Shown: piece after piece, positions 10,674 to 60,083 of the stretch
Layout: the number at the start of each line of letters is the position of its first letter
Position numbering within the stretch: position 1 is the first letter of the stretch
NCBI GenBank assembly: GCA_021845925.1
Contig: JAJZUW010000009.1
Span: 34,178 to 98,177 of the forward strand
Source: Pseudomonadota bacterium
Lineage (GTDB): Bacteria > Pseudomonadota > Gammaproteobacteria > Burkholderiales > Sulfuriferulaceae
Direction: 5' to 3'
DNA length: 64,000 nt
The notes under the pieces: model-generated
Databases searched by the model: none
What the model saw: the letters and a program-made list of their open reading frames with translations, nothing else
What the model was told of the DNA's origin: nothing
Program-made: the position numbers and the translations under genes

Positions 10674-10700
10674 TAAAGTTTTCTGCTGCAACGACGATAA
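10674..10700 (+). promoter_or_regulatory. Sigma-28 (FliA)-type promoter, distal copy before flhDC
   Basis: TAAAGTTT-N11-GACGATAA differs at one position from the bacterial flagellar sigma-28 consensus TAAAGTTT-N11-GCCGATAA and is preceded by CC, as is common in this group. It reads toward flhD, 490 bases upstream of its start codon. A class I operon is not normally expected to carry sigma-28 promoters. Confidence 0.72.
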
Positions 10701-10794: not shown

Positions 10795-10821
10795 TAAAGT
10801 TTTCGGAAAGCATGTCGTAAA
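10795..10821 (+). promoter_or_regulatory. Sigma-28 (FliA)-type promoter, proximal copy before flhDC
   Basis: TAAAGTTT-N11-GTCGTAAA: the -35 element is perfect, the spacer is exact, and the -10 differs from GCCGATAA at three positions. It shares the flanking CCCTAAAGTTTTC and a trailing ACGG with the distal copy 121 bases upstream. It lies about 370 bases before the flhD start codon. Confidence 0.6.
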
Positions 10822-24232: not shown

Positions 24233-24706
24233 TCAGCCGGTGACGAAGCCGCGTTTGCGGTTTCCGGCTGCCTGACTGGTTTGCCCATCCGGGCCGTACA
24301 GTGAAGCGTTGCGACCGGACAGGATATCCAGTGCGCTGCGGTAGCGCCCCAGCTGGGTATTGATCATCAGGCCATTGGTGTTGTTGAGGTTGCGTGCGGA
24401 ACGAACCCGGTCAATCAGTTTTTCCCAGATATCGTGCAGTTCGGGGTCGGGGTGACGGTTCAGGTATTCCTGCATGCCGGCCTCTTCGGCCGCGCAGCCC
24501 GCTTCTCCGAGAAGTGCGTGTCGCTGGCTGGCCAGTTGCGCCAGATTGGCAATATGACGGGCTTTCTGTTCGATGACCTGGCCGATGTCATGAATCCTGG
24601 CCTCTACCAGTAGTTCCTGTTCTTTGCGGATGAGGTCGAGCAGGTCGTCCATGACGCGGATTTCCTGGCCAATCTGTTGATGCAGGCGAATGTCCGGGCC
24701 GGTCAT
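24233..24706 (-). CDS. flgN: Flagellar export chaperone FlgN
   Basis: A 157-aa largely helical protein of the FlgN family, the cytosolic chaperone of the hook-filament junction proteins FlgK and FlgL. The helical stretch MDDLLDLIRKEQELLVEARIHDI and the family-type NNTNGLMINTQLGRYRSALDIL near the C-terminus support the call, as does its overlap with flgM (four bases, ATGA). It converges on rimO with 16 bases between stops. Confidence 0.88.
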   Translation of the reverse strand: MTGPDIRLHQQIGQEIRVMDDLLDLIRKEQELLVEARIHDIGQVIEQKARHIANLAQLASQRHALLGEAGCAAEEAGMQEYLNRHPDPELHDIWEKLIDRVRSARNLNNTNGLMINTQLGRYRSALDILSGRNASLYGPDGQTSQAAGNRKRGFVTG

Positions 24707-25011
24707 GCCTGACCATTGCTGGCCAGCAGGCCTCGCACGGAGTTGATCAGCTCATTGGCAACCTTGCTGGTATCAACACTGAATTGACCATTGGCAATGG
24801 CCTGACGGATGGAATCCACCTTCTGCGCGTCGTAGGTTCCGCTGCTGGCGATGGTGGACTGCAATGCCTGCAATGGTGCGGACGTGGATGCGACGCTGTC
24901 GGAGCCAGTGCTGGTGTTGACGGCAGGGGAAGATGTTGCACGAGACTTGCCGGCCGTGGCGCTGCCAACCGACAGGCTGGACACGTTCTTGATGGAGTCT
25001 GTGATCTTCAT
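24703..25011 (-). CDS. flgM: Anti-sigma-28 factor FlgM
   Basis: A 102-aa protein that holds FliA (sigma-28) inactive until exported through the finished hook. It starts MKITDSIKNVSSL. The N-terminal half is Ser/Thr/Ala-rich and probably disordered. The C-terminal helix region VDSIRQAIANGQFSVDTSKVANELI is the sigma-binding part. ATG 25011 was preferred over 25020 because of spacing from AGAG. It is directly preceded by a sigma-28 promoter, giving the classical negative feedback loop, and overlaps flgN. Confidence 0.94.
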   Translation of the reverse strand: MKITDSIKNVSSLSVGSATAGKSRATSSPAVNTSTGSDSVASTSAPLQALQSTIASSGTYDAQKVDSIRQAIANGQFSVDTSKVANELINSVRGLLASNGQA

Positions 25012-25058
25012 GGTCGTCATCTCTGGTTCATTTCCCGGAATGCCGGGTCACAGACTGT

Positions 25059-25085
25059 TTTTCGGCAGATTTTCCGCAAACTTTA
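25059..25085 (-). promoter_or_regulatory. Sigma-28 promoter of flgMN
   Basis: On the minus strand, TAAAGTTT-N11-GCCGAAAA matches the sigma-28 consensus at 15 of 16 positions with the exact 11-base spacer. It lies in the flgA-flgM gap about 48 bases before the flgM ATG. A small hairpin CCCGG-AATG-CCGGG (25034-25047) lies in the expected leader. Confidence 0.88.
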
Positions 25086-33219: not shown

Positions 33220-35466
33220 ATGGGTTTGTCTGACGTACTTAACATCGGCCAAAGTGCGCTTGCAGCTGCCCAGATTGGCCTGCAGGTGACCGGCAACAAC
33301 ATTGCCAATGCGTCCACGCCGGGATACAATCGCGAGACGGTTGTCCAGGCTGAGTCCACGTCGCAGGGGTTTGGTTATGGGTTTCTGGGTAGTGGGGTCA
33401 ACGTGGCTACCGTGCAGCGCATGTATTCATCCTTCGCCACGCAACAGGTCAATTCTGCCCAGGCCAATTCCAGCGGGCTGTCGACGTATTACAGCCAGAT
33501 GCAGCAGATCGACAACATGCTGGGCGATACGACTTCCGGTTTGTCGCCGGACATGCAGTCGTTTTTTTCCGGCGTGCAGACCATGGCCGCCAATCCGTCC
33601 TCGCTGGCGTCGCGCCAGGCCATGCTGGCGGATGCGCAGACTCTGGTCAGCCAGTTCCAGGGTATGGGGGCGCAGCTGGATCAGATGAACCAGTCGGTCA
33701 ACACCCAGATACAGACCAGTATCGGTTCGATCAACAGCATTGCCGCCCAGATTGCCCAGCTCAATGGTGCCATCGCCGCTGCCCAGACTTCGCCCCAGCA
33801 ACCGCCAAATACACTGCTGGACCAGCGTGACCAGCTGGTCAACCAGCTGAATCAGCAGGTGGCGGCTACGGTCGTGCAGGACGGCAATGGCAATGACAAC
33901 GTGTATATCGGCAATGGACAGGCGTTGGTGATCGGCCAGTCCAGTTACCAGTTGTCCACCGCGCAGTCTGCTCTCGATCCGACTCAGCTGGCTGTGGCTT
34001 ATACGGCAAATGGCAAGACCGCAACGTTGCCTGACTCCGCGCTGACTGGCGGGCAACTGGGGGGAGTGCTCAGTTTCCGGGATCTCTCGCTCAACAGTGC
34101 GCAGAACCAGCTTGGCCTGCTGGCCATTGGCATGGGCAATGCATTCAACAATCAGCAGGCGCTTGGCCTGGACCTGAACGGCAAGCCGGGCGCGCCCATG
34201 TTTACTGTGGCCGTGCCACAAGTGTCTGCGGCATCGACCAACCTGGGGACAGGAGCGGTCACTGCCAGTATTTCCGACCCTTCCCAGTTGACTGCGCAGG
34301 ATTACCAGCTGACCTATGACAGCGGTACTTATACGCTGAGCGCTGTGAACGGATCGAAAGTGGCCAGTTTTACTTCCTTTCCGCAAACCATTGATGGTCT
34401 GACCATCAATCTCACCGGAACGCCACAGAACGGCGACACCTTTCTGATCCGGCCGACCGCCAATGGCGCCGATGCCATGTCGCTGGCGCTGACCGATCCG
34501 GCCGGTATCGCGGCGGCGGCACCGATACTGACTTCAACGGTGGCCGACAGTCCGGTCATGTCCGCGGCAACTGCTACCAATACAGGCACGGGACAGATCA
34601 GCAGCGTGGCTCTGGGCAACAACCCGACCTCGCCGCTGTCAGCCACGGTCACGCTGACCTACAACAGCACTGGCAACACCCTGACCGGCTTTCCGGCAAA
34701 CCAACCGGTGACGGTGACCACGCCAGACGGTACGACAACGTCATTTGCCGCAGGCACGCCCGTGACCTATACCTCCGGCAGTACCATCAGCTTTCAGGGA
34801 TTGAGCTTTACGGTCAGCGGAACGCCCGCCAATGGAGATACCTTTACCCTGAGTAATGGCGGTACCGGCCAGATCAGCCCCGGAACGGTGAGTTCGGCCT
34901 ATACCGCATCGCCCCTGGCATCTCCGGTAACGCTGACCTACAATGGAACCACGGGCAACCTGACCGGATTTCCGGCAGCCGATGCGGTAACCGTCACCGT
35001 GGGCGGCTCATCAACCACATATCCGGCTGGTACTCCGGTACCTTATACGGCAGGCGCCAGCATCAGTTTTGGCGGCATGAGTTTCACCATTAACGGAACG
35101 CTGATCAACAACGATACCTTCACCATCGCACCGAACACCAATGCGACCGGTGACAACCGGAATGCGTTGTTGATGGGACAGTTACAGAACAGCAAGACCT
35201 TGTATGGCGGAACGTCGACATTTGCCGGAGGGTATGCGGAGCTGGTCAGCAGCGTGGCCAGCAAAACCAGCGAGCTCAACGTGACCAGTACGTCGGAAAA
35301 CAACGCCCTGAAAGGGTTGCAGCAGACGCAGCAGTCCGTTTCCGGAGTCAATCTGGATCAGGAAGCGACCAATCTCCTGCAATACCAGCAAGCGTATCAG
35401 GCCGCCGGAAAGCTGATGCAGATTGCCAGTCAGTTGTTTAACACGCTGCTTAACGTGAGCGCTTGA
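33220..35466 (+). CDS. flgK: Hook-filament junction protein FlgK (HAP1), enlarged
   Basis: A 748-aa protein, longer than the common 450-650 aa. The conserved N-terminus (SDVLNIGQSALAAAQIGLQV, then NNIANASTPGYNRE) and the C-terminus (SGVNLDQEATNLLQYQQAYQ) identify FlgK. Residues about 456-547 and 548-640 are two copies of one unit, each starting GTGQIS, with VTLTYN.., LTGFPA.., a GTPV-Y-SG run, GLSFTV/GMSFTI and NGDTFT/NNDTFT. A weaker third copy lies before them (about 340-420). These form a Thr/Gly-rich surface insertion. ATG 33220 follows GGAGGAG. FlgN is the likely chaperone. Confidence 0.95.
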   Translation: MGLSDVLNIGQSALAAAQIGLQVTGNNIANASTPGYNRETVVQAESTSQGFGYGFLGSGVNVATVQRMYSSFATQQVNSAQANSSGLSTYYSQMQQIDNMLGDTTSGLSPDMQSFFSGVQTMAANPSSLASRQAMLADAQTLVSQFQGMGAQLDQMNQSVNTQIQTSIGSINSIAAQIAQLNGAIAAAQTSPQQPPNTLLDQRDQLVNQLNQQVAATVVQDGNGNDNVYIGNGQALVIGQSSYQLSTAQSALDPTQLAVAYTANGKTATLPDSALTGGQLGGVLSFRDLSLNSAQNQLGLLAIGMGNAFNNQQALGLDLNGKPGAPMFTVAVPQVSAASTNLGTGAVTASISDPSQLTAQDYQLTYDSGTYTLSAVNGSKVASFTSFPQTIDGLTINLTGTPQNGDTFLIRPTANGADAMSLALTDPAGIAAAAPILTSTVADSPVMSAATATNTGTGQISSVALGNNPTSPLSATVTLTYNSTGNTLTGFPANQPVTVTTPDGTTTSFAAGTPVTYTSGSTISFQGLSFTVSGTPANGDTFTLSNGGTGQISPGTVSSAYTASPLASPVTLTYNGTTGNLTGFPAADAVTVTVGGSSTTYPAGTPVPYTAGASISFGGMSFTINGTLINNDTFTIAPNTNATGDNRNALLMGQLQNSKTLYGGTSTFAGGYAELVSSVASKTSELNVTSTSENNALKGLQQTQQSVSGVNLDQEATNLLQYQQAYQAAGKLMQIASQLFNTLLNVSA

Positions 35467-57100: not shown

Positions 57101-57312
57101 GCCACCCGTTCGCTGAACGCGACGATGTGGTCCGACATCTGCTGGGGTGGCATGCCGCTGTAGTGCCAGATCACCGAAACAACCGGTATGTCGATTTCCG
57201 GCAGAATGTCGGTCGGCGTGCGTGACAGACTGAACACGCCGCCCAGCACAATCAACAGTGCCATGACGATAAACGTGTACGGGCGGTTCAGTGCGAGTTT
57301 GACAATCCACAT
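54172..57312 (-). CDS. RND multidrug efflux permease
   Basis: A 1046-aa inner-membrane transporter of the AcrB/MdtB class. TM1 is NRPYTFIVMALLIVLGGVFS. Two large periplasmic loops, each between TM1-2 and TM7-8, show the gene duplication typical of the family. TM4 has the proton-relay Asp pair in LALAVGILVDDATVAIENI. TM10-12 are in LSVPALTGAIMSMGVGAANSILVI and MTAMAMMIGMLPMALGLGEGGEQNAPLGRAVIGGLL. It probably exports drugs or other small amphiphiles; the substrate is not predictable. It is the first gene of the operon, with AGGA before ATG 57312. Confidence 0.94.
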   Translation of the reverse strand: MWIVKLALNRPYTFIVMALLIVLGGVFSLSRTPTDILPEIDIPVVSVIWHYSGMPPQQMSDHIVAFSERVATTTVNDIEHIESQSLDETAVVKYFFQPHVNEDLAVAQITSVSQTLLRQMPPGTTPPFILAYNASSVPVIQLALSSSKMTGAELFDFGNSFMRTQLATVAGASLPFPFGGLMRQVQVDINPVALRNFGLSAADVANAIGTQNLILPAGTEKIGNLEYHIEMNAEFSAINQLNDIPLRTRNGNLIHIRDVAFVHDGAPPQTNMVRVDGHQAVLMSVLKTGTASTLNIISSIKHMLPAIQDDMPSGMSLRALGDQSIFVRAAVDGVIREGVIAAALTGLMILLFLGSWRSTLIITISIPLSVLSSIMVLSALGNTINIMTLGGLALAVGILVDDATVAIENINWHLEQGKPVETAILDGARQIAMPSLVSTLAICIVFIPMFMLTGVAHYLFVPLAESVVFAMLASWILSRTLVPTLASYLLREHAPHEIHSKGFFGRLQHRFEDGFNWLRDRYHGLLTQTLNHSRGFILTFVILASLSLLILSPWLGQNFFPSVDAGQIKLHLRAATGTRIETTAALCDEVEAQIRRDIPASQLSNMVDVIGLPYSGINLSYSTSAPIGPGDADIFITLSPDHAPTASYVERLRKDLVTRFPTTTFAFLPADIVSQILNFGMPAPLDIQIAGNNTVANQAYAQKLLPLLKAIPGTVDLRIQQAFNYPRIKVNVNRDLAAQLGYSEQDVATNLFTTLSGSFQTTPSFWTNPKTGVQYSVAVQAPQYDMTSVDDLQHMPVNGAGKPQQLLDNLATIERGYDPAVVSHYNVKPVIDIYGDVHGTDLGSVASRMRSLLARPDMKPPKGVTVTLRGQVETMNKSYTSLGWGLLAAVVLVYLLIVINYQSWLDPFIIITALPAALAGIVWMLFLTHTTLSVPALTGAIMSMGVGAANSILVISFAREQLAEGLNAHDAALQAGFTRFRPVLMTAMAMMIGMLPMALGLGEGGEQNAPLGRAVIGGLLFATVATLFFVPAVFSELRGRLQRSHP

Positions 57313-57640
57313 GGTCGGGCAATCCTGGCGACAGTGCGCAGATTATAGATTATCGATAATATGACCTGCAAGCTGAATGGCGGTCATATGACAGTTTGGC
57401 GACCGGCATCTGACAACGAGCCAAGGCTGGTAGTCCTGCTTGCAGCAGACGTCAGCAAGGCCACGGATATTCCATGCTCATGAAGCTTGCGTTCGATGCC
57501 CGCAAGGGCGTGGAGATGTCATGACTGACGCATGCAAAGGGAATGCCGTGAAGCGTCATGCACAGGCGTGTTGCAGGTCTGCTGACCTGGCAAGGCCGGT
57601 GCTGGTATCGCCGATGCCAGGTCGGGATTTCGGGACAAAT
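57313..57640. other. Intergenic region before the RND operon
   Basis: About 330 bases separate the pump start from the end of the next gene upstream. The first 80 hold the promoter and palindromes described separately. The remaining 250 show no convincing coding frame, RNA gene or strong terminator. Confidence 0.6.
57342..57371 (-). promoter_or_regulatory. Promoter of the RND operon with a palindromic operator
   Basis: On the minus strand, TTGCAG-N18-TATAAT lies about 30 bases before the pump ATG. The spacer contains a perfect 12-bp palindrome, ATTATCGATAAT (57349-57360). Further upstream, GTCATATGAC (57383-57392) is another perfect palindrome, and TATGACC pairs with GGTCATA across the -35 element. 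A dimeric repressor bound here would block RNA polymerase; the GntR gene in the operon is the obvious candidate (inference). Confidence 0.65.
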
Positions 57641-58309
57641 TCAGACTGTGTTGCCAGATGATCCGTTGACGGGCGGGGTGGTCGAGGCTGGCTGGTTGTT
57701 CAGGGCTTGCGTCAGAATGCTGCTGCTGATGCCGGCAGACTGCAACGCAGTTGGTGTGCTGAGACTGAACAGGGATGCCAGCGAAGAGTTGCTGGAACCG
57801 GTGTTGCTGCTGTTGCCATACAGCAGGCTGGACATGGTGTTGTTCAGTGTCTGCTGGGCATTGAGCACATCCTGGGTGGCCTGGGCCTGCGTGACCTGTG
57901 TCGTGGATGCGTTCGATGTCTGCGCCCCATTGACCAGAGATATCAGTGATGCCAGGCTGCTGTTGCCGGAACCGGAAGCAGAGCCGGTGTTCAGCAGTTG
58001 TGACAGGCTTGAGCTTCCTGCGCTGGACGATGATGTCTGGTTGAACAGGGCGTTGACCGTGCTGCCGGCACTCTTGCTGATGGCTTGCTCAAGCGCTGAA
58101 ACCTGCGAACTGCTCAGTTTGCCGGCGGCATTGTATGTGATGGAACCGGTCGGTGGCGTATTGCCCAGACTCACGGTGGTGCTGCCAGCATTACTGGTGC
58201 TGCTCGATGTGGTCGTGCTGGTGGTGGAACCGGTGTTGCCGGTCTGGCCGAGCACCTGTTGCAGGGCGGATTGAAGCACTGCGTTGCCCAGGGAATTGAT
58301 GGTGGACAT
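57641..58309 (-). CDS. Ser/Thr/Asn-rich protein of the sigma-28 regulon, unknown
   Basis: A 222-aa protein starting MSTINSLGNAVLQSALQQVLG, with GAGGTGAC before ATG 58309. It has no Cys or Trp, very few charged or aromatic residues, and is made of Ser, Thr, Asn, Ala, Gly, Gln and Leu. Low-complexity runs (TSTTTSSSTSN, TSSSSAGSSSLSQLL) alternate with predicted amphipathic helices such as SSSQVSALEQAISKSA and TQAQATQDVLNAQQTLNNTM. There is no signal peptide or membrane segment. A near-perfect sigma-28 promoter lies 35 bases upstream. The composition and lack of a signal resemble flagellar export substrates such as FlgM. I recognise no named family. A longer frame from 58423 covers the promoter and is rejected. 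Confidence 0.85.
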   Translation of the reverse strand: MSTINSLGNAVLQSALQQVLGQTGNTGSTTSTTTSSSTSNAGSTTVSLGNTPPTGSITYNAAGKLSSSQVSALEQAISKSAGSTVNALFNQTSSSSAGSSSLSQLLNTGSASGSGNSSLASLISLVNGAQTSNASTTQVTQAQATQDVLNAQQTLNNTMSSLLYGNSSNTGSSNSSLASLFSLSTPTALQSAGISSSILTQALNNQPASTTPPVNGSSGNTV

Positions 58310-58343
58310 GCTGTCACCTCGCGCAAAAACGGACTTACGACCA

Positions 58344-58370
58344 TTATCGGCAGGATTGCAGAAAACTTGA
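58344..58370 (-). promoter_or_regulatory. Sigma-28 promoter of the Ser/Thr/Asn-rich gene
   Basis: On the minus strand, TCAAGTTT-N11-GCCGATAA matches 15 of 16 consensus positions with the exact spacer and a perfect -10. It is the best sigma-28 match seen in the window together with that of flgM. The expected transcript would start about 28 bases before the ATG. Confidence 0.88.
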
Positions 58371-58415
58371 CGGTCAAATTGTGAACCGGGCATGTCCACC
58401 ACGATCGACAGGGGA

Positions 58416-60083
58416 TCAATCAATCTCTGTCAGGTTGTCAATCAACGGTTTGAGCCATGTGGCATATGGTTTCCAGCGCCCGATGGCATCGCGATAGAGT
58501 GGTTTGCGCACTTGAACCAGGCTTGCTGTGCGGACGGTCCGGCGAACCAGTTCGGGCTGCAGGCAGGCTGGATGCCACGACAGACCGAGGTGATCCAGAA
58601 TGTTCCGGATGGTGGGCTCCGGCTGGCTGACCAGCGTTTCATAGCTGACATCCAGAATGCGTCCGGTTGGCAGAACCGATTGCCAGTGTCGCATCAGTTG
58701 GCGATAACGGTTGTACTGCCTTGCCATGGTTTCGAGGTCGAAGGCATATTCATGTCCCTGGCTAAACCGCAGCGTGTAGCATGAAAAGCAGCAATCCAGT
58801 GGATTTCGGTGGACATGCAGGATTGCAGCATGTGGAAACAGCAGGTGGATCAGACCCAGATGCAGGAAATTGCCCAACTGTTTGTCTACCACCCGGCTGG
58901 CTGCGGGATGCCGTTGCCAGAGCTTGTCCAGATATGTCTGACCGGTCAGCCCAAGCAGGTCGGCATCGCCACCCGGTGGTGCATTTTGCAGCTGTTCCAC
59001 GGCTTCCTGCAACCAGGGTACTTCGCCGGCGACACCAATGTCGGGATGGGCAGCCAGCATCTGTTCGAGCAGTGTAGAGCCGGAACGCATCATGCCCACA
59101 ATGAAAATCGGCGGACGTTGCTGTACCGATGGTGGAAGAACAGAGCGGGAAAGCGGGATCTGTTCGATGAGTTCCCGACTGAATGTGGCTTGCATCTGGC
59201 TGAAAATCCGCTGTTCGCGGGTTTCGTCAAACGGATGCAGATCCAGATGCAGACGGTTGGCTTCCTGCCAGGCTGCAAACGCCTGCGCATGACGTCCTGC
59301 CCGGTCATGCATCCGTCCCATGGCAAACCCCAGCAATATCTGGTGGGCGGGCAGATACTCTGATCGCCGTGCGTACAATTCGTCCAGTCTGGAAAAATCT
59401 GCATCGTGGTGGTCCGGATCGAGCCAGGTCAGCGCACTGGCCAGTGGGGCAGGCTGGTCGGGTGCGCTGCGGATGGCGAGCCGAAAAGCCTGTTCGCCTT
59501 CGGCGTGCTGACCAAGTTCCATCAGCACGGTGCCCAGGTTGGTCAAGGGCTCGGCCTGTGCCGGCACAATGTCCAGTGAATGGCGATAACATTCCGCCGC
59601 CATCGCTGGCTCACCCAGCCGGGCGAATGCATTGCCCATATTGTTCCAGGCTTCGGCGTAATCGGGACGAAACTGCAGGGCCAGGCGCAGGTTGTCAATG
59701 GCGGGCCGAAACTGTCCGCTTTCCAGCTGGACCACGGCCAGATTGTTGATGGCTTCGGCATGGTCCGGCTCAATGTGGATGGCCTGGCTGAATGAGGCTG
59801 CAGCGTCTGCCAGTCTGTTCATGCGCATCAGACAGACCCCCAGATTGTTGTACGCCACGGCCGATGCGGGATTCAGGTCGACAGCAACCCGGAATGCGGC
59901 TTCGGCGCCAGACAGGTCCTGTTGTTGCAGGAGAGCCAGTCCGCGCTGGATGAGAAAGGCACTTGCATCCTGGCTGATCTGGTGACGCTTTTCCGCGTCT
60001 GGCTTGATGTCATGCCCAGAACGAGCAGTCGGCTTGTCTGTGCCGGCAGGAGCGGTTTGTCTTTTTTCCTCAGGTGCTTGCAT
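58416..60083 (-). CDS. TPR repeat protein with a sulfotransferase domain
   Basis: A 555-aa protein. After a polar N-terminus (about 1-40), five or so tetratricopeptide repeats run to about residue 230 (for example ASAVAYNNLGVCLMRMNRLADAAASFSQAI and DYAEAWNNMGNAFARLGEPAMAAECYRHSL). The C-terminal sulfotransferase domain (about 325-545) has the PAPS-binding loop PIFIVGMMRSGSTLLEQMLAAHP and the 3'-phosphate site HVHRNPLDCCFSCY. No signal peptide is present, so it is likely cytosolic. It lies upstream of the sigma-28 gene on the same strand, but the promoter between them makes that gene a separate unit. The acceptor is unknown. Confidence 0.88.
   Translation of the reverse strand: MQAPEEKRQTAPAGTDKPTARSGHDIKPDAEKRHQISQDASAFLIQRGLALLQQQDLSGAEAAFRVAVDLNPASAVAYNNLGVCLMRMNRLADAAASFSQAIHIEPDHAEAINNLAVVQLESGQFRPAIDNLRLALQFRPDYAEAWNNMGNAFARLGEPAMAAECYRHSLDIVPAQAEPLTNLGTVLMELGQHAEGEQAFRLAIRSAPDQPAPLASALTWLDPDHHDADFSRLDELYARRSEYLPAHQILLGFAMGRMHDRAGRHAQAFAAWQEANRLHLDLHPFDETREQRIFSQMQATFSRELIEQIPLSRSVLPPSVQQRPPIFIVGMMRSGSTLLEQMLAAHPDIGVAGEVPWLQEAVEQLQNAPPGGDADLLGLTGQTYLDKLWQRHPAASRVVDKQLGNFLHLGLIHLLFPHAAILHVHRNPLDCCFSCYTLRFSQGHEYAFDLETMARQYNRYRQLMRHWQSVLPTGRILDVSYETLVSQPEPTIRNILDHLGLSWHPACLQPELVRRTVRTASLVQVRKPLYRDAIGRWKPYATWLKPLIDNLTEID

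Follow-up and report, generated by a model that had tools for sequence, protein, structure and literature searches.

In the window, by which we mean the whole 64,000-nucleotide stretch of DNA analysed, a reading frame for a 222-aa protein stands outside any flagellar operon and has an RND efflux operon (PF00873) directly downstream. The genome (2,337,315 bases in 15 contigs) belongs very probably to the genus Sulfuriferula, and together with 17 genus mates it formed the comparison set of 18 genomes. An alternative in-frame TTG start at 58423 would extend the protein to 260 aa; the ATG is favoured because GAGGT precedes it and the orthologues align from it (Table 1). Five orthologues were found by protein similarity alone, blind to the promoter: those of G005 (62% identity), G015, G013 and G002 within the genus, and that of G168 in another family of the same order. 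A scan of 57300-58500 for sigma-70-type promoters and intrinsic terminators gave neither, and the perfect inverted repeat directly past the stop was not counted as one of the latter. Reading of the neighbouring genes revealed no chaperone gene adjoining the ORF.

Table 1. Positions in the window of the 222-aa gene, its sequence features and the comparison loci
Feature	Positions	Strand	Basis
Coding sequence, 222 aa plus stop	57641..58309	-	ATG at 58309, stop ends at 57641; ORF listing and conservation with five orthologues
Shine-Dalgarno-like GAGGT 5' of the ATG	58316..58320	-	read directly
Sigma-28 (FliA) promoter-like site TCAAGTTT-N11-GCCGATAA	58344..58370	-	15 of 16 consensus bases
Conserved N-terminal block, residues 1-20	58250..58309	-	alignments; helix 3-20 in low-confidence model; putative export signal
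Conserved core, residues 44-90 (TTVSLGN...ITYNAAGKLSSSQVSALEQAI...ALF)	58040..58180	-	alignments; strand 57-59 and helix 67-90 in low-confidence model
Third conserved block, residues 141-164	57818..57889	-	alignments; helix 141-164 in low-confidence model
Inverted repeat, 9 nt	57584-57592 / 57615-57623
flgM reading frame	24703-25020	-	FlgM by TIGR03824 and PF04316
Comparison sigma-28 site, 38 nt before flgM	25059..25085	-
flgK	33220-35466	+	FlgK by profile
Sigma-28-like sites upstream of flhD (start 11191)	10674-10700; 10795-10821	+	FlhD by profile

Strength of the sigma-28 promoter-like site

The FliA consensus is TAAAGTTT-N11-GCCGATAA, and the full motif upstream of the 222-aa gene, TCAAGTTTTCTGCAATCCTGCCGATAA, departs from it at a single position. 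An earlier note on this DNA had reported a near-perfect sigma-28 motif 35 bases before the gene, and the motif is borne out, with a gap of 34 nt between its end and the ATG. A published Escherichia coli ChIP-seq table places the same TAAAGTTT-N11-GCCGATAA before tar and a site starting TCAA before modABC (PMC4183435).

When the 100 nt upstream of the gene were dinucleotide-shuffled 5000 times, no shuffle matched the motif as well. Across the whole genome three N11 sites have at most one mismatch, one before flgM, one upstream of flhDC and the one before the 222-aa gene, against about 0.05 expected on an equal-base estimate; the next-best site, with two mismatches, precedes a flagellin gene. 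When up to three mismatches are allowed, 13 matches to the motif compare with 18 to a reversed control pattern, so that only near-perfect sites are informative by themselves. Among the 18 genus genomes, sites with at most two mismatches lie before genes identified by reading as flgM, flagellin, flgK and cheY-like (FlgM and FlgK of the window being confirmed by profile), which calibrates the motif for Sulfuriferula; at the same threshold no target gene is evident for many other sites in the genus, and matches to the reversed pattern are also common. FliA itself is encoded in the window genome (G000:C15), scoring 282.3 bits against a family cut-off of 189.6.

Composition and affinities of the protein

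The protein contains neither Cys nor Trp, has four D/E/K/R residues among its 222 and consists to 56% of Ser, Thr, Asn and Gln, much as the earlier note had described it; all six members of the family likewise lack Cys and Trp, with 2-6% charged residues. Its N-terminus, MSTINSLGNAVLQSALQQVLG, shows neither a basic start nor a hydrophobic core, and hence no Sec-type signal when judged by eye, in agreement with the absence of a signal peptide noted before. The alignments reveal three conserved blocks joined by Ser/Thr/Gly/Asn linkers of variable length, the third being mostly absent from the short G002 protein. In a structure model built from three sequences the three helices coincide with these blocks, and with a mean pLDDT of 43 they are not to be trusted.

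FlgD, FlgL, FlgK, FlgE, FlgG and FlgF are flagellar export substrates. When the 56 window ORFs of at least 100 aa were ranked, a mechanically picked list that includes non-genes, omits flgM and comes from a window rich in flagellar genes, the 222-aa protein had both the lowest charge and the highest Ser/Thr/Asn/Gln content; ranks two to six of both lists were taken, in varying order, by FlgD, FlgL, FlgK, FlgE and FlgG (named by NCBIfam), and FlgF stood only 11th by charge. The composition, an indirect indication, fits the export substrate that had been suggested in the earlier note; secretion itself is a prediction from sequence. Given composition and co-regulation with the flagellum, we consider that the 222-aa protein is probably exported by the flagellar apparatus. 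The leading alternative, in itself unlikely, is a sigma-28-controlled protein kept in the cytoplasm as a disordered regulator or a chaperone-like partner of flagellar proteins. The protein is indeed short and largely unstructured in the (poor) model, its promoter is of the type found before flgM, and the regulator FlgM is also rich in Ser, Thr, Asn, Gln, Ala and Gly (62%). Nevertheless, FlgM has 13% charged residues as against four among 222 here, and the window proteins closest in composition are the axial export substrates.

Searches of Pfam, NCBIfam and PHROGs with the six members gave no convincing family match, so that the profile check proposed in the earlier note brought up no credible unrelated family. 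No flagellar family appeared in the Pfam and NCBIfam scans of the six members (E up to 1), nor with the window protein alone in Pfam at E up to 10, and sequences of the PDB gave no match at E up to 1. Stray matches to MAP70 (window protein, E 7.2), to the S-layer SbsC C-terminal family (E 0.0054), DUF2680 (E 0.012) and EssA (E 0.23), each of these three in one of the six members, and to four PHROGs (E 0.1 to 0.33) were taken as low-complexity noise.

The second alternative, which appears quite improbable, is that the protein belongs to a known flagellar family such as FlaG, FliK or a minor axial protein and has diverged too far for profiles to recognise it. Low complexity may well hide homology, and hhalign aligned the family with an insert of the window FlgK; however, this kinship, which would run through a common LGN...LTYN stretch, was rejected because the stretch is too short, and the match is not significant (20 columns, E 0.057 for one comparison, probability about 1%). 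Kinship with FlgD was likewise rejected (comparison E 0.25), and the database searches described above also speak against a known family. The window FlgK itself holds two VTLTYN...LTGFP stretches, the first of which pairs weakly with the family core (20 columns).

Conservation of the site and distribution of the gene

All five orthologues carry a sigma-28-like site with an 11-nt spacer, located 34-45 nt before the ATG. The sites read TAAAGTTT/GCCGTTAT in G005 (two mismatches; none of 5000 shuffles as good, from 64 nt of upstream sequence only), TCAAGTTT/ACCGTTAA in G015 (three mismatches; 6 of 5000), TAAAGTTG/GACGATAA in G013 (two mismatches; 0 of 5000), TCAACTTT/GCCGTTAT in G002 (4 of 16 bases mismatched; 4 of 5000) and TCAAGTAT/GCCGATAT in G168 (three mismatches; 1 of 5000). 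Among 151 mechanically picked control ORFs, four have a site with at most five mismatches, and these are the orthologues of G015 and G013 themselves, flgK (four mismatches) and an efflux gene of G005 (five). The reading of a late flagellar gene, already put forward from the window by itself, gains support from this conservation, and we regard sigma-28 control of the 222-aa gene, predicted from its upstream sequence, as very likely.

Apart from the motif, the DNA upstream of the orthologues is poorly conserved, and the neighbouring genes, judged by reading, mostly differ between the window and the orthologues. In G005 an RND efflux operon lies nearby, past one intervening region on the other strand; beside the gene in G013, G002, G015 and G168 none was recognised by reading, the stretches of the last two being short. 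Since the motif is kept while the neighbours differ, the promoter travels with the gene and does not derive from a fixed operon context.

These neighbourhoods bear on a third alternative, which we consider more improbable still, namely that the sigma-28 site is real but the protein is exported by a path other than the flagellum, or serves at the surface or in adhesion and only shares its regulation with motility. FliA of E. coli also drives the non-flagellar modABC, ves and flxA (PMC4183435), and RND operons lie close to the gene in the window and in G005; yet such an operon was recognised beside the gene in none of the stretches from the other four genomes, and the N-terminus has no visible Sec-type signal. 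That the motif lies by chance before a spurious ORF is exceedingly improbable: low-complexity ORFs can be spurious, and of 35 FliA sites newly detected in E. coli 28 are inside genes (PMC4183435), but motif and frame are preserved in every orthologue and dN stays well below dS against both G005 (0.42 and 3.40, the latter near saturation) and G015 (0.74 and 1.67), two further pairs being not computable owing to saturated dS.

Within the genus the gene was detected in 5 of the 18 genomes (the window genome, G005, G015, G013 and G002), though FliA exceeds its family cut-off in 16, including all five holders, which indicates that the gene is not needed for a flagellum. A flagellin-N match was likewise found in 16 of 18, with a profile that also catches FlgL. 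No copy was detected in the genus mate G011; some of the absences could reflect gaps, several genus genomes being incomplete. Matches in G014 (E 0.007) and G009 (E 0.008) were judged unrelated on reading of the frames, that of G009 falling in a thioredoxin-like protein; counting both would give 7 of 18. On a FliA tree built from 16 members of the genus (19 rows, leaving out G010 and G017, which have no FliA over the cut-off) four holders fall in one clade of five genomes, the fifth being G006, which lacks the gene, and G013 stands elsewhere. The fewest changes in presence of the gene on this tree are three, of which well-supported branches force two; as the holders are split, gains or losses of the gene have occurred.

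Wider profile searches, whose first step is coarse and may pass over relatives of low complexity, gave matches in 4 of 399 genomes from the order (G168 and three Sulfuriferula genomes), in 1 of 369 from the class (the window genome itself), in 4 of 150 from the family to which G168 belongs, three of these matches being weak, and in 3 of 34 from the genus of G168, two being weak. In scans of genome contigs, the single protein matched a pattern in 104 stretches, none of them a relative, and the alignment-based scan gave 82 stretches, two of which are relatives on the same contigs as G005 and G015. Viral contigs yielded no relatives (0 of 185) and plasmids no tblastn match.

The family of G168 contains three remote matches that are weak (L050, L051 and L052; E 1.4e-4 to 2.7e-4, aligned from profile position 21 or 22 onwards). 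Their core resembles STVS.GN...PLTYNA.G, and none of their ORFs is preceded by a sigma-28 motif. Conservation of the motif, which the earlier note had proposed to examine in related genomes, accordingly holds for the five orthologues and fails for these three: either FliA controls only part of the family, or they are not true relatives. They may also mark a wider family of which the flagellar gene is one branch.

A putative orphan late flagellar gene

The explanation that we favour, with rather more confidence than doubt, is an orphan sigma-28-dependent gene whose product, for the most part disordered, is exported through the flagellar type III apparatus. It would be a stand-alone late (class 3) flagellar gene: with the hook-basal body complete and FlgM gone from the cell, FliA-RNA polymerase would transcribe it from 58370-58344, and the nearly uncharged, Ser/Thr/Asn/Gln-rich product would leave through the flagellar apparatus by means of its conserved N-terminal block, with no need of a Sec signal, and would then act extracellularly, either on the filament or after release. 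Far more tentatively, and with considerable doubt, we may hypothesize that free-living sulfur-oxidising betaproteobacteria have a new family of extracellular proteins exported by the flagellum, released or coating the filament, perhaps for attachment to minerals or sulfur; the flagellum would then be a secretion channel outside animal hosts, and a single gene would move between genome locations with its own sigma-28 promoter.

The gene shares with flgM, flagellin and flgK of the class 3 sigma-28 regulon the consensus and the 11-nt spacing found in the genus, where the distance from site to start is about 38-52 nt for flgM and 28-29 nt for flgK, and its product resembles FlgK and FlgL in low charge and in the lack of Cys and Trp. 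Unlike those genes, it has no convincing homology, lies outside a flagellar operon and was not found in 13 of the 18 genus genomes. E. coli FlxA, for which we know of no function, is linked to the 222-aa protein by no Pfam family. It resembles it in being FliA-dependent, and is counted as a non-flagellar target (PMC4183435). A functional analogy, by description, is offered by FspA, CiaI and FedB of Campylobacter, which are described as co-produced with flagellin or as secreted through the type III apparatus of the flagellum (PMC2764114 and PMC8306008), whereas the host here is an environmental sulfur oxidiser and export is predicted; two other proteins were found in a flagellum-dependent secretome (PMC5223770).

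No such protein is described in the titles and abstract openings searched, a scope outside which most subscription journals fall, and we regard it as a new protein family of an already known type, that of orphan late flagellar genes. Homology or position is what usually reveals a late flagellar gene; here conservation of a promoter singles out an undescribed family amid changing neighbourhoods. Export of the protein would suggest that secretion of non-structural proteins extends to the flagella of environmental lithotrophs; a review raises the question whether flagellated bacteria commonly secrete in this way (PMC8306008).

Further sigma-28-like sites were observed in the genus. Eleven Sulfuriferula genomes have one or two (at most three mismatches) 344-616 nt upstream of flhD, the loci other than that of the window having been chosen because they hold such a site, and in 5 of the 11 the sites are paired, 118-132 nt apart. 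This arrangement suggests that FliA feeds back on its own master regulator, or that sigma-28 drives a leader RNA. G001, G003 and G008 each contain two FliA matches above the family cut-off, which suggests two flagellar systems. In G014 (L148) a sigma-28-like TCAAGTTTTAAGTATTGTTGCCGTTAA lies 44 nt upstream of an ORF of 65 aa that is rich in Ser, Gln and Thr and may be a further small orphan gene of the late flagellar class.
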